A stretch of DNA of 64,000 bases from Leeuwenhoekiella blandensis MED217 (GTDB lineage Bacteria > Bacteroidota > Bacteroidia > Flavobacteriales > Flavobacteriaceae), in NCBI RefSeq assembly GCF_000152985.1, contig NZ_CH672395.1:3321823-3385822 (forward strand), given 5' to 3'. Both the position numbers and the translations under genes were made by a program. Numbering within the stretch: position 1 is the stretch's first letter; each line of letters begins with the position of its first letter. Below are positions 47,152 through 64,000 of this stretch, one piece after another. The notes under the pieces were generated by a model. The model was not told where the DNA came from, did not search any database, and saw only the letters and a list, made by a program, of their open reading frames with translations.

Positions 47152-48554
47152 AAAGTATTTTTTAAAGCTTGTACACAAGCTTGAGTGGTTTCGTCAAGAG
47201 GTTTTCCCACCTGCATATCGATAAGCTTCCTGCGATTTTCCAGATCCAGATTGGAATTACGCAGGTATGCGTTTACAGCAGCATACAATTCTTCTGCATT
47301 TTTTGCGATTTTAACCGCACCACTTTTAACCACATTGTCATAATGCTCATACTGTAAAAAGCGCTGATCATTATAAAGTCCGTTCTCCACGTTACCAAAA
47401 ACGGTGTTGACCACAGGTTTATCAAACAACATAAAATCAAGGCTCATCGTTGAAAGCATATTGACGTTTAAGTCGCAATAGTTTAAAATTGCTTTAAGCA
47501 TAGACAAATCGGCAACTGTTGGTACCCGCTGAGACCAGGGCTCGGGATGCCCTTCACGGGTAAGCTCCCATTTAGGATGATTCCATTTGATCTCGGGGTA
47601 TTTTGTTTTGGTTTCTGCGAATCGCTGCTCGTCTTCAGCCGGTGAAGTTCGTACCAAAAGCTGGCACAAATCGATTGCTCCTGAACGAATCCCCTCTACC
47701 AAAGTAGCAATTACCAAAGGATCATTTGCTCCAATAGAAGCATCAGCACAACTGTAACAGATGATTTTTTCTTTAGAATTTAAATCTAAAGTCTTGTAAA
47801 ACTTCCTTTCGGAAAGGTCAAATTGGGGTAACACATAAGGTTCAAACTGAGGTGTACCTACAACTGAAATAGCTTTTGCTCTGGTGTATGGGTAGAACCG
47901 AAGCAATTCGTGTTTCATCAAATCGCTCCAGACCAGAAAGTAATCAAAAGTCGCAGCCATCCTCCCTTTTGAAGCCAGATTATCCCAACTAAAAATAAAC
48001 GAGGCGGTAGGAATCTGTAACTTTTTCGCCCAAAAAACTAGAGTAGCAATAAAGGGTGGTCGCTGATGCGTAAAAAACAACAGATCTGGCTTATGATCCC
48101 TTAAAATTTCACCATATTTAGCTACAGTTGCGTCTTTTGCAAAGCTCTGCTCCTGAAGCGTTTCATACTTGAGTATATTCTTTTCACTATAAAATACTGA
48201 ACTAACGGTATAAACCAGGCGAACCAAAAGCCCGTGCGGGCTCCAGCTTTTTGCCTTATTCATCTCATAATTATCTGCAATACCCGGATTGGATTTATGT
48301 TTCTGCAGGTGTGCTACTTCTTTCAGTTTACGCCAAAACCAGTTCTTTTTAGTTTCAGTAAAAACAGGAAGTTCAACGATCGTAAAAACAGTTTTATCAA
48401 GCTCAGGAAATGCTGAAGAAGGAAGCCCTGAAAATATAATTACTTTTTTAAAAGAACGGGCTGCTTCAGTCATGAAAGTGCTCAGCACAAAGTTGCGAAA
48501 ACCAACCCCATCTGTAATGACAATTCCTAAGGCCTTTTGAGATTCTAAATTCAA
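47148..48554 (-). CDS. Putative GT-B fold transferase (glycerophosphotransferase-like)
   Basis: Up to 468 residues. The C-terminal half resembles CDP-glycerol glycerophosphotransferase and related GT-B enzymes: FLVWSDLMKHEL, SVVGTPQFEPY and LSTMSLDFMLFDKPVVNTVFG. The N-terminal half (LGIVITDGVGFRNFVLSTFM) is a family I do not recognise. No ATG begins the frame: TTG at 48554 is the nominal start and lies inside a heptad array, and the first ATG is codon 28. The start is therefore uncertain. Confidence 0.65.
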   Translation of the reverse strand: MNLESQKALGIVITDGVGFRNFVLSTFMTEAARSFKKVIIFSGLPSSAFPELDKTVFTIVELPVFTETKKNWFWRKLKEVAHLQKHKSNPGIADNYEMNKAKSWSPHGLLVRLVYTVSSVFYSEKNILKYETLQEQSFAKDATVAKYGEILRDHKPDLLFFTHQRPPFIATLVFWAKKLQIPTASFIFSWDNLASKGRMAATFDYFLVWSDLMKHELLRFYPYTRAKAISVVGTPQFEPYVLPQFDLSERKFYKTLDLNSKEKIICYSCADASIGANDPLVIATLVEGIRSGAIDLCQLLVRTSPAEDEQRFAETKTKYPEIKWNHPKWELTREGHPEPWSQRVPTVADLSMLKAILNYCDLNVNMLSTMSLDFMLFDKPVVNTVFGNVENGLYNDQRFLQYEHYDNVVKSGAVKIAKNAEELYAAVNAYLRNSNLDLENRRKLIDMQVGKPLDETTQACVQALKNTL

Positions 48555-48608
48555 GATTTTAGATTCAAAGTTAGAAGTTTAAAATGCATATTTCATTTTT
48601 CAAAATTA
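48543..48608 (-). repeat. Heptad array of GAA/TAA type
   Basis: On the plus strand TTC or TTN recurs every 7 bases at 48543, 48550, 48557, 48564, 48571, 48578, (48585 TGC), 48592, 48599 and 48606. On the minus strand this is (nnnnGAA)n, in register with the neuC stop codon (48606-48608) and reaching the nominal start of the next gene. Five of the ten units keep the exact triplet. Confidence 0.72.
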
Positions 48609-49730
48609 AAGATCTCGAAACTGCTTTTGATGGTCTATTTTCCAAAAGGCTTCGGTTCTTAAGGCTTCCAGAAATCCAGAAGCTGCTGTTTTAGTACTTT
48701 TTGTCCCTTTTGGATTGACCTTTAGCGCTTTCGCGGAAGCGATACCTTTTAAAATAGCTGCTTTAGCATTATCCACGTGAATGATACTGTCAGTCTGCAA
48801 GTCGCGATTTTCTTGACGTCTGCCTACATTTACTGTGGGAATACCCAGATAGGGAGCCTCGTGAATACCGGCACTGCTGTTTCCTATTAAGAACGCCGCG
48901 TTTTTGAGCAAGGTAATAAAATACTCAAACCTCAAGGACGGAAAAAGCCGGAATCGCTGATGCTTTTCAAATTTACGATAGGCCTCCAAAATAGCCGAAG
49001 AACCTAGGTCGCTATTGGGGTAAATCACCACATAGTTTTGATTATCTTCCAATAGCGCCTGTACAAAATCATCTGCGTGCTTGGCAGTTTCCTGATGAGC
49101 TGTGGTTACGGAATGAAATAAAACTACCGCATAGCTTTCAAACGGAATGTTGTAATAAGTTTTTACAGTTTTGAGATTGGGTAAAGTTTCACTGAACAAC
49201 ACATCTAAATCAGCCGAACCGATGTTAAAAATACTGCTTTCGAGTTCGCCCATTTGTACCAAACGCTTAGCTGCCGTCCCATGAGAGACGAAATGAATAT
49301 GACTCAATTTACTCACCGAATGCCTAATGAGTTCGTCAACCGTTCCTGAAAGTTCGCCACCTTCAATGTGACCAACTAGAATATTATTCAATGAACCCAC
49401 GATTGCACCGGCCAAGGCTTCGACCCGGTCGCCATGAACGATTATTAAATCTGGCTGAAATGCTTTCACATAGGCCGAAAAACCTTCAATAGTTCTAGCC
49501 AGAGTGAGGTCCATAGTGGCTTCAGAGGTATAATTCGAGTAGCGCTCAATATTTTGAAAACCTGCTTTTTCAATTTCAATAACAGTGAGCCCATATTGCT
49601 CGAGCAGATGCATTCCGGTTGCAAAAATTCCATATTCAAAGTCAGTTGAATCGTGAATTGCCTGAATAAGCGATTTCAGTTTCCCAAAATCTGCCCGAGT
49701 GCCGGTAAGAAAAGCTATTTTTTTAATCAC
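48606..49730 (-). CDS. neuC: UDP-N-acetylglucosamine 2-epimerase, hydrolysing (NeuC/LegG family)
   Basis: 374 residues beginning [16 protein letters not shown]. Other family features are [28 protein letters not shown] and [24 protein letters not shown]. It releases UDP and forms ManNAc (sialic acid route) or the 2,4-diacetamido sugar (legionaminic route). GTG start, overlapping neuB by four bases (GTGA). Pathway choice is open because the legionaminic dehydratase and aminotransferase are not in the window. Confidence 0.9.
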
Positions 49731-61680: not shown

Positions 61681-62950
61681 AAGACACCTTATAGTCGACT
61701 AAAATCTTACTCTGACTGGAAGCTACCTCTTTATAACCTTTGTAGAAAAACCCTTCAGCCACTTCAAATTGAAAAGCATTTTTAGCCCAGTCTGTAACTT
61801 CTCCTTTATAAGTCAAATGCGTAGTCACCCAATAAGAACCGGAATTAAGCGGTAATTTATCAAGACTAAAAACGATTGTATTTGAAGTAGTTGAACTTCC
61901 GTCTTCACCTTGCATTTTGGTACTAAACCATAGCAACCTGTTACCGGTAATATCATCTATGCGAAAGTCAAGCCTCACATCTTTTATTTGATAAGCAATA
62001 GCACTTTCTAGGTGAAAGCAAATATCTAAAGGCTTTCCGGTCGTTGGTTTCTGATACTGACCGCCATTTAAAAAGCGAACAGAATTTATTTTTACCATAC
62101 CGGTTCCGCTTCGTTCATAATCACTTATTGAGATGCGGTCTGATGTATTCCTTTGGACTCCCAAACTCAAATAATGTCCAACAGTATCATCCACACTTCC
62201 ATCAAAAATAGAAGTTCCATGCTCCAGTAAAAGTCCGCGTGTACACAGATTGCGAACACTTTCCATATTATGACTAACAAACAATACAGTTCTCCCTTCT
62301 CCCTGAGATATATCCTGCATCTTTCCAATAGCTTTCTTTTGAAATTCAGCATCTCCCACCGCAAGCACCTCATCCACAACAAGGATCTCAGGTTCCAAAT
62401 GCGCAGCCACCGCAAAGGCCAGACGTACGGTCATCCCACTGCTATAGCGCTTGGTGGGCGTATCGATATAACGTTCACACCCGGAGAAAGCAATGATCTC
62501 ATCGAGCTTTCGGGTGATCTCCGCTTTTTGCATCCCAAGTATGGCCCCATTTAAATAGATATTTTCACGCCCGGTCAATTCATGATGAAAACCCGTACCT
62601 ACTTCAAGTAAAGAGGCAATCCGGCCCCGGCTTTTAATAACTCCGGTACTTGGTGCAGTAACACGGGAAAGAATTTTAAGTAAAGTAGATTTTCCTGCTC
62701 CATTTTTCCCTATAATTCCTAAAACCTCCCCTTGTTTAACCTCAAAGTTGATGTCTTGCAATGCCCATACATAGTCCTCGGTCGATTGCTGACTGCGATC
62801 ATTTACCGCACCTACTTTCAAAAAAGGATCTTCCTTACCTAGTAAACGTGCCCAATTCCGCTTAAGATCATCCCGCAACGTACCCGTCCCTACCGTTCCC
62901 AGTCGGTATTGTTTAGAAATATTTTCGGCTTTGAGGATAATATCTGACAT
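61670..62950 (-). CDS. wzt: Polysaccharide ABC transporter ATPase with carbohydrate-binding domain (Wzt)
   Basis: 426 residues. The ATPase domain has Walker A GKNGAGKST (81-89), YSSGMTVRLAFA signature and ILVVDEVLAVGD Walker B. A C-terminal beta domain (from about 265, with GSYWVTTHLTYKGEVTDW) resembles the Wzt carbohydrate-binding module that recognises the glycan to be exported. It pairs with the membrane subunit at 63549. The region between them holds the four-helix-bundle pseudogene and two heptad arrays. Confidence 0.92.
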   Translation of the reverse strand: MSDIILKAENISKQYRLGTVGTGTLRDDLKRNWARLLGKEDPFLKVGAVNDRSQQSTEDYVWALQDINFEVKQGEVLGIIGKNGAGKSTLLKILSRVTAPSTGVIKSRGRIASLLEVGTGFHHELTGRENIYLNGAILGMQKAEITRKLDEIIAFSGCERYIDTPTKRYSSGMTVRLAFAVAAHLEPEILVVDEVLAVGDAEFQKKAIGKMQDISQGEGRTVLFVSHNMESVRNLCTRGLLLEHGTSIFDGSVDDTVGHYLSLGVQRNTSDRISISDYERSGTGMVKINSVRFLNGGQYQKPTTGKPLDICFHLESAIAYQIKDVRLDFRIDDITGNRLLWFSTKMQGEDGSSTTSNTIVFSLDKLPLNSGSYWVTTHLTYKGEVTDWAKNAFQFEVAEGFFYKGYKEVASSQSKILVDYKVSYDV

Positions 62951-62966
62951 ATTTTATATTGGGAAT

Positions 62967-62997
62967 TAGGCTGTAGCTAATAGGTTATAGTCGATAG
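62967..62997 (+). repeat. Heptad array TAGnnnn, plus orientation
   Basis: TAG recurs exactly every 7 bases at 62967, 62974, 62981, 62988 and 62995, with the sixth position TTG. The four bases between vary (GCTG, CTAA, GTTA, TCGA, TCAG). It lies between the wzt start and an oppositely oriented array; 22-base arms of the two (62976-62997 and 63025-63046) are complementary at 18 positions. Confidence 0.85.
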
Positions 62998-63017
62998 TCA
63001 GTTGGTAATATTAAAAG

Positions 63018-63055
63018 CTAAGAGCTATCGCCTATTACCTAACAGCTAAAAGCTA
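63018..63055 (-). repeat. Heptad array TAGnnnn, minus orientation
   Basis: On the minus strand TAG recurs at exact 7-base steps at 63053, 63046, 63039, 63032, 63025 and 63018 (lowest coordinate of each triplet), with TAA next at 63011. The first TAG is the stop codon of the four-helix-bundle gene, so the array starts in register with that stop. Confidence 0.87.
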
Positions 63056-63418
63056 TCCTTCTTTTAAAAACCGTTGCAGCCCAGCAATCATTTTCAATAA
63101 CTCCGCTAGCTGCTGGCGATTGTCCAAATCCTTTGACTTTTTAATATAACCCTGCCTAAAAGCAATTGTGGAACACACCACACATTCTTTCGCCGAATTC
63201 TTAGCAATATTTAAAAACCTGTTGAATTGCGCATTACTATCGCCTTTACCTTCCGCAATGTTCAACGATATGGAACAGGCTGCTCTGATAAATTGAGAGC
63301 TGAGTCCGTAAAGCTCCTACTTCGGAAATGATTCTGTTTGTTTATATACTTCATCAATAAAATCCAGCGCTTTCTGATAAACGCTCAATCCCTCAAAATC
63401 AAAACTAACCTCCTTCAT
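63053..63418 (-). pseudogene. Four-helix-bundle (23S rRNA-intervening-sequence type) protein with in-frame stop
   Basis: Reading from ATG at 63418 gives 121 codons: MKEVSFDFEGLSVYQKALDF ... ESFPK, then TAG (63317-63319), then ELYGLSSQFIRAACSISLNIAEGKG to the end. The second part, with SLNIAEG, is the family signature; the first is the normal first helix. One base change at codon 34 would restore the gene. Such proteins are small and helical, with no firm function. Flanked on both sides by heptad arrays, between wzm and wzt. Confidence 0.85.
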
Positions 63419-63443
63419 AATGCACTCCTTATTTTAAAAAAAC

Positions 63444-63551
63444 CTACGGACTAAGACCTAAAAGCTATAGACTATAAGCTACCGACTAACCACTATCTCC
63501 TTCAAGCTACCAACTACCAGCTATCGACTAAAACCTATCGACTTTCAGTTA
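63444..63551 (-). repeat. Long heptad array TAGnnnn
   Basis: Over 108 bases, the minus-strand triplet TAG occurs at every seventh base from 63444 to 63535 with one exception, and the register continues through 63542 (AAG) to 63549 (TAA), the stop of the ABC permease gene. Thirteen of 16 triplets are exactly TAG. Spacer tetramers vary (TCGA, GTTT, CTGG, TTGG, CTTA and others). No indel breaks the phase. Confidence 0.9.
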
Positions 63552-64000
63552 TATCGTATCAATAAAATTCCTCCCGGTTCGGTTAAAAACGATCAAGCCA
63601 ATAAAAAATACCGCTAGGCTAAGCACCCCGCAATATCCCAAAAGTCCCCAATCAAAAAGCCCTTCTTGAAGACTCATAGACCGAAAGGCCTCAATAAGGA
63701 TCGCAATAGGATTCAGTTCGATCAACCAGGCATATGCACTTAAACTGTTACTATTTTTCACTTCAGCAATAGGATACATCACCGCAGAGACATACATCAA
63801 CAAGGTCGTCGCAAACCCGATCAGGATTCTAAAATCCCGGTACTTCGTGGTCAACGAACTGATCAACATCCCTAAACCTAAGCCTAAAACGGCCAGGATT
63901 CCCAACACCACCGGAAACAACCACAGCGTAACATCAGGTTGTAATGCGTAGCCCTTCAACACAAAATACACATAAAAACAAGCAAAGATGAGCAACTGTA
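63549..64000 (-). CDS. wzm: Polysaccharide ABC exporter membrane subunit (Wzm), C-terminal part
   Basis: The frame is open to the right edge, so the N-terminal part is outside the window; the visible 150 residues hold four membrane helices and the ABC-2 pattern TTKYRDFRILIGFATTLLMYVSAVMYP and LNPIAILIEAFRSM near the end. This is the Wzm/TagG/KpsM type. It would form the channel for the Wzt ATPase encoded downstream. Confidence 0.88.
   Translation of the reverse strand, partial: QLLIFACFYVYFVLKGYALQPDVTLWLFPVVLGILAVLGLGLGMLISSLTTKYRDFRILIGFATTLLMYVSAVMYPIAEVKNSNSLSAYAWLIELNPIAILIEAFRSMSLQEGLFDWGLLGYCGVLSLAVFFIGLIVFNRTGRNFIDTI

Follow-up and report, generated by a model that had tools for sequence, protein, structure and literature searches.

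Among the described systems closest to the locus reported here is the 23S rRNA IVS of Leptospira and Coxiella with its S23p/IVP open reading frame, in which a gene of protein family PF05635 likewise lies within complementary, stem-forming ends (PMC4990558); unlike it, the element described below sits at a junction in a protein-coding operon, between the sugar-export genes wzm and wzt, and its ends are phased heptad arrays. Intergenic 7-base units have been reported as GGGAATC heptamers in Xanthomonas, with 70-75 convergent inverted pairs per genome, and as GGGGA(C/T)T heptamers in Nostoc, and the parts of PMC4692102 that deal with them treat them purely as repeats and make no connection to IVP. 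Like these and the cyanobacterial heptameric STRR, the wzm-wzt array is intergenic with a 7-base period, but the units of the known repeats are more uniform than TAGnnnn. Direct repeats of TAACTGA in Beggiatoaceae, Cyanobacteria and some Bacteroidetes resemble the heptad arrays in their 7-base period, intergenic position, patchy spread and admixture of other heptamers, yet they consist of a fixed heptamer and stand mostly directly before start codons, and no PF05635 partner gene is named for them (PMC4679880). In REP/RAYT systems, as in the case of IVP and its heptads, one gene family is tied to dispersed non-coding repeats and to gene-less inverted pairs. RAYT, however, belongs to the Y1 transposases and its REPs are palindromic, whereas the repeats that go with IVP are phased arrays, and we know of no catalytic site in IVP. 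The ORF of the 23S rRNA IVS was reportedly described in 1993, and to our knowledge no function has been established for PF05635 (S23p) since then.

The window, i.e., the whole 64,000-nt stretch of the Leeuwenhoekiella blandensis MED217 genome that was analyzed, contains an array that had been predicted from the sequence as strictly phased TAGnnnn heptads anchored on the stop codon of wzm. Its existence is confirmed: 16 units run from 63551 to 63444 of the minus strand without a single indel, 13 of them beginning with TAG, two with AAG and one with TAA, and the TAA of unit 1 is the wzm stop codon (63549-63551). Read from 63551, units 1-8 are TAACTGA, AAGTCGA, TAGGTTT, TAGTCGA, TAGCTGG, TAGTTGG, TAGCTTG and AAGGAGA, and units 9-16 are TAGTGGT, TAGTCGG, TAGCTTA, TAGTCTA, TAGCTTT, TAGGTCT, TAGTCCG and TAG. 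The window has 20 matches to a pattern of four in-phase TAGs (with at most one mismatch), far more than the 0.21 that dinucleotide-shuffled sequence would yield, and all 20 matches are confined to 62960-63055 or 63444-63544. Self-matches of at least 55% over 70-base stretches of the window occurred at lags 7 and 14 only, among lags 4 to 15. A uniform heptamer unit was not found at this locus, where four of seven bases vary, although uniform heptamer arrays are present elsewhere in the genus; a tandem 7-base period in intergenic DNA was found.

The original prediction treated the array as a single feature, which holds as far as its existence goes but is incomplete, as the array forms one side of an element that also has a gene and, beyond it, an opposing arm (Table 1). 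Two further arrays lie 400-600 bp from the left arm, one running on the minus strand and one on the plus strand, with the IVP gene between. It is nearly certain that the wzm-wzt array belongs to an IVP element as one of its arms.

Table 1. Parts of the IVP insertion between wzm and wzt (positions in the window).
Feature	Position	Strand	Remarks
Left (upstream) arm	63444..63551	-	16 phased heptads TAGnnnn/AAGnnnn, unit 1 on wzm stop
PF05635 gene (23S_rRNA_IVP / TIGR02436 four helix bundle), 121 codons	63053..63418	-	104 bits, whole domain
Second heptad array, left-arm orientation, 6 phased TAG units	63011..63055	-	Begins on the TAG stop of the IVP gene
Inverted heptad array (right arm), directly before wzt	62967..63000	+	Complementary to left arm and second array
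Entire inserted segment, ~600 bp	62951..63548	-	Missing in three congeners
wzm 3' part, ABC-2 membrane protein, PF01061	63549..64000	-	Extends past the window end
wzt, ABC ATPase, PF00005 and Wzt_C domain PF14524	61670..62950	-	

ORFs and neighbors were called by simple rules. No further ORF of at least 60 aa was found within the inserted segment, and only the PF05635 gene lies between the arms, with no transposase, including the Y1 (TnpA_REP) type, no nuclease and no reverse transcriptase; neither a transposase nor a parent element with one, as in insertion sequences or MITEs, was thus found. The BrickBuilt MITE of P. gingivalis (PMC4596501), with its 23-bp repeats, showed no relation. An in-frame TAG interrupts the local IVP gene at codon 34 (63317-63319), so that this copy is probably an inactive pseudogene. 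As in the 23S IVS, the PF05635/S23p ORF (here with its one in-frame TAG) stands within complementary ends, but the insertion site is not a 23S rRNA gene. In the predicted minimum-energy fold of the 601-nt segment from the wzm stop to the wzt start, the left arm is base-paired to the inverted array at the other terminus, with 34 of its bases in pairs with the right end. A DNA hairpin at 62960-63058 folds better than 199 of 200 shuffles (z = -3.2). No Rfam match was obtained within 62800-63700. Avd of diversity-generating retroelements is a four-helix bundle of distant kinship (NF033474, E = 1.4e-4; a consensus-like relative reached 22 bits, well short of the cut-off of 80), but the IVP element has neither a reverse transcriptase nor a template repeat.

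Comparison within the genus showed the same junction in different states. In three sister genomes (G001, G002, with a 93% identical wzt, and G007) the wzm-wzt site is empty, the stop and start codons overlapping as TAATG with nothing inserted. No clear target-site duplication was seen when filled and empty wzm-wzt sites were compared by eye. A fourth genome, G003, carries the same insertion with IVP mostly deleted and with 18 phased heptads starting from the wzm stop, so the phase is kept in a relative, as the original prediction demanded. Aligned gap-free from the right end, the 16 units shared by G003 and the window differ at none of the 32 AG positions, at 3 of 16 first bases and at 25 of 64 of the other four bases. 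The ffh-folD junction, too, varies within this genus: it was found filled, decayed, with a solo arm, with inverted arms but no ORF, and free of arrays. Elsewhere in the source genome, 21 bases identical to the window's arm occur at genome position 3178363, within an array cluster that lacks an IVP gene. This non-coding region (L002 1286-1783, genome 3178.3-3178.8 kb) follows a Wzc-like gene and contains several short TAG-heptad arrays, which have units in common with the window's arm, mixed with AACAAAC-like heptads.

Arms of this kind are common at other IVP genes. The source genome has seven PF05635 genes, the genus ~57 matches spread over 12 of 13 genomes, and 113 of 149 Flavobacteriaceae genomes have IVP, in up to 16 copies each. 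Genome contigs were scanned with a single protein. In the flanks of 123 Flavobacteriaceae IVP loci, the lag-7 self-match was 0.48 upstream (z 19) and 0.49 downstream (z 18), compared with 0.32-0.33 in shuffles; further peaks were seen at lags 14 and 21, lag 8 was weakly raised downstream, and the remaining lags from 2 to 20 were not clearly raised. Lag 7 was the best of lags 3-9 in 65% and 62% of the loci for the two flanks, where ~14% is expected by chance. Results for lag 7 were alike in other Bacteroidota and in 21 loci from further phyla, some of them with period 8, and lag-7 peaks were frequent at the ends of IVP genes. At some IVP genes the arms are weak or absent, and some arms have period 6 or 8. 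The units vary between elements, yet both flanks of one IVP gene are complementary to each other: the local score of the upstream arm against the reverse complement of the downstream arm was 15.8 for true partners and 8.6 for swapped ones, compared with 8.7 and 7.5, respectively, in the same-strand control. The kinship with cyanobacterial heptameric repeats that had been suggested for the wzm-wzt array was borne out on cyanobacterial plasmids, where most of the 10 IVP copies inspected have inverted heptamer-like arms, AGTAGGG, GGGAACA and TTGGCTT among them. We found no published description of IVP genes with heptad flanks in a search that covered few subscription journals, and tblastn with an XCC0516 segment gave no IVP match in phages.

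The arms also travel with the protein. Arm likeness grows with the closeness of the IVP proteins, at unrelated sites too, the share of common 6-mers rising from 0.076 at 40-50% protein identity to 0.19 at 60-70% and 0.32 above 70% (n = 6 pairs). For IVP pairs at least 55% identical and located at unrelated sites, arms share 14.4% of 6-mers compared with 8.3% after permutation (maximum of 500 permutations, 10.0%). The median dN/dS of 98 same-site IVP pairs, which are not independent of each other, was 0.12, indicating that the protein is kept by purifying selection.

The prediction that array starts share the phase of stop codons beyond chance was upheld in a set of 221 related loci. After a TAG stop of the upstream gene (98 loci), AG follows at +8, +15 and +22 in 49, 46 and 44% of loci, respectively, and at the offsets in between in 2-15%; no AG phase was seen after TAA or TGA stops, so the array often provides the stop codon of the upstream gene. 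The lag-7 signal climbs at the upstream stop: in the 195 loci whose spacer is 35 bases or longer, it is 0.28 within the gene and 0.44-0.53 over the 24 bases that follow the stop. Among 222 IVP loci, and with a cut-off of 160 codons, the upstream neighbor lies on the same strand in 191 cases and on the other strand in 14, and the downstream neighbor in 206 and 16 cases, respectively. Some cyanobacterial IVP genes are oriented opposite to both neighbors.

Arrays are not restricted to the vicinity of IVP genes. A 1.26-Mb sample of the source genome contained 18 intergenic arrays at lag 7, three at lag 11 and none at lags 5, 6, 8, 9, 10 or 12. Three of the 18 lie beside an IVP gene and 15 have no adjoining IVP, so action in cis alone is insufficient as an explanation. 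Several arrays without IVP (L026, L020, L036, L027, L037, L001 and L024, at ~1480-1600), composed of TAGACGT, TAGACTT or mixed units, are located after the stop codon of a gene and ahead of its terminator hairpin; where two genes converge, the hairpin has such arrays on both sides. As with REP/RAYT, the number of dispersed repeats tracks one gene family. The pattern (DAGnnnn)x6, for which overlapping matches within one array are counted several times and whose AG core comes from the wzm-wzt locus, with arrays of other units undercounted, was searched in 149 Flavobacteriaceae genomes of 148 genera. On average it matched 0.3 times in the 36 genomes without IVP, 9.8 times with 1-2 copies, 24 with 3-5, 57 with 6-9 and 47 with at least 10 (p = 1e-25 for a Spearman correlation of 0.73, uncorrected for phylogeny). 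In genomes of at least 2.8 Mb, three or more matches were present in 1 of 18 without IVP and in 70 of 95 with IVP (p = 5e-8). In a phylum-wide sample the correlation was 0.54 (Spearman, uncorrected for phylogeny), with five IVP-free genomes as exceptions that have arrays, with at most 61 matches; three genomes (G167, G251, G172) have no PF05635 match and 20-61 pattern matches. A period-8 pattern was found in 37 of 149 genomes versus 99 of 149 for period 7, and in at least one case (G119:C13) a period-8 pair flanks an IVP gene. One genome of the family sample (G035) has many arrays of 8-base units (TAGAAAAT/GAGGAAAT), with 131 pattern matches, as a period-8 counterpart of the heptads.

Beyond the anatomy of the locus, IVP probably recognizes the heptad arms and drives their spread. 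The element consists of one PF05635 four-helix-bundle gene within mutually inverted 7-base arrays at a junction of co-directional genes, its first unit coinciding with the stop codon of the upstream gene. IVP, whose solved relatives are pentamers (XCC0516, 2gsc, and a reference quoted in PMC3936711), would recognize the phased AG-containing units or the hairpin of the paired arms, and with a host enzyme as partner the element and the array pairs lacking IVP would be copied or inserted into spacers beside stop codons, the arms spreading in cis and in trans as REPs do through RAYT. Arrays may then grow and shrink by whole units, in the course of which the four free bases would change while the period and the AG core stay. 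Recognition and spread of heptad arrays by IVP is the simplest account of the traveling arms, the tracking of copy number and the ORF-less inverted arms, as judged from comparative sequence data; binding, present-day mobility and the partner enzyme are what we infer from it.

Alternatively, the element may act at the RNA level as in 23S rRNA, the arms pairing in the operon mRNA and RNase III cutting the stem, so that the IVP segment is removed or the mRNA is split, with the heptads only maintaining a renewable stem. We consider this unlikely, even though the protein family and the layout are those of the 23S IVS, where RNase III cleaves the stem formed by the two complementary ends (PMC4990558), the predicted fold pairs the left arm with the terminal inverted array and IVP genes are mostly co-directional with both neighbors. 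It leaves the arrays far from IVP genes unexplained, and the cyanobacterial genes opposite to both neighbors speak against it. Mismatches between arms that would be tolerated as G.U pairs on the sense strand are not in excess (114 versus 202 of the opposite kind), a comparison confounded by composition and hence uninformative because upstream arms are A-rich and T-poor.

IVP as an RNA- or DNA-binding regulator is a doubtful explanation. The arrays would then be its sites after stop codons, like those of TRAP on (G/U)AG repeats, and its own arms would serve autoregulation. The AG core with its fixed spacing would fit, as would arrays that begin on stop codons with and without IVP, several of the latter lying before a terminator hairpin, but the IVP gene moves with its arms and has empty sites like an inserting element, and the neighboring genes show no common function.

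It is improbable, too, that the arrays are slippage-prone microsatellites, with IVP genes merely happening to share their neutral spacers and the complementarity of the arms maintained by template switching. The change from 16 to 18 units between sister genomes with the phase kept and the many exact tandem heptamers without an IVP gene are as expected from slippage; strong enrichment at lag 7 only, among the lags tested, the near absence of arrays from the IVP-free genomes among the 149 Flavobacteriaceae, the fixed AG next to changing bases in G003 and arms that follow the IVP protein between unrelated sites are not. The proposal of an all-frame translation stop cassette after wzm is scarcely credible: TAG does occur in all three frames of the minus strand, but this was not borne out as a purpose, since the opposing arm is inverted and gives no TAG series on the coding strand, and stop-free units (GCAGGTT, GGGAACA, GGGGTCA) make up same-kind arms at many other IVP genes, which contradicts such a general function and makes the stop content a by-product of the local heptad.

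These data bring together two formerly separate puzzles, the function of PF05635 and the heptamer repeats, by linking seven-base repeats of a type noticed long ago with a single protein family. With slightly less than even odds, PF05635 genes may make up a widespread class of minimal mobile elements, in which a lone pentameric four-helix-bundle protein would recognize and propagate phased 7-base arrays, in cis as its inverted arms and in trans as dispersed arrays without IVP. It would then have left the heptamer repeats reported earlier from cyanobacteria, Xanthomonas and Bacteroidota as footprints, and the 23S rRNA IVS would be one special landing place.

IVP appears among the cas-locus proteins listed in PMC3936711. 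Each of the three cas-locus copies inspected is bordered on one side or both by repeat arms like those of other IVP genes, which points to insertion rather than a CRISPR role and bears on claims of guilt by association. These IVP genes (L307, L311, L314) lie in CRISPR operons of cyanobacterial plasmids, in the orders cas6-IVP-cas4 and cas10-IVP-cmr3. In the window itself, a weak 7-base periodicity (AGATTTTAGATTCAAAG) was also noticed at 48520-48625, in a spacer without an IVP gene between two genes, one of which apparently encodes a UDP-GlcNAc 2-epimerase.
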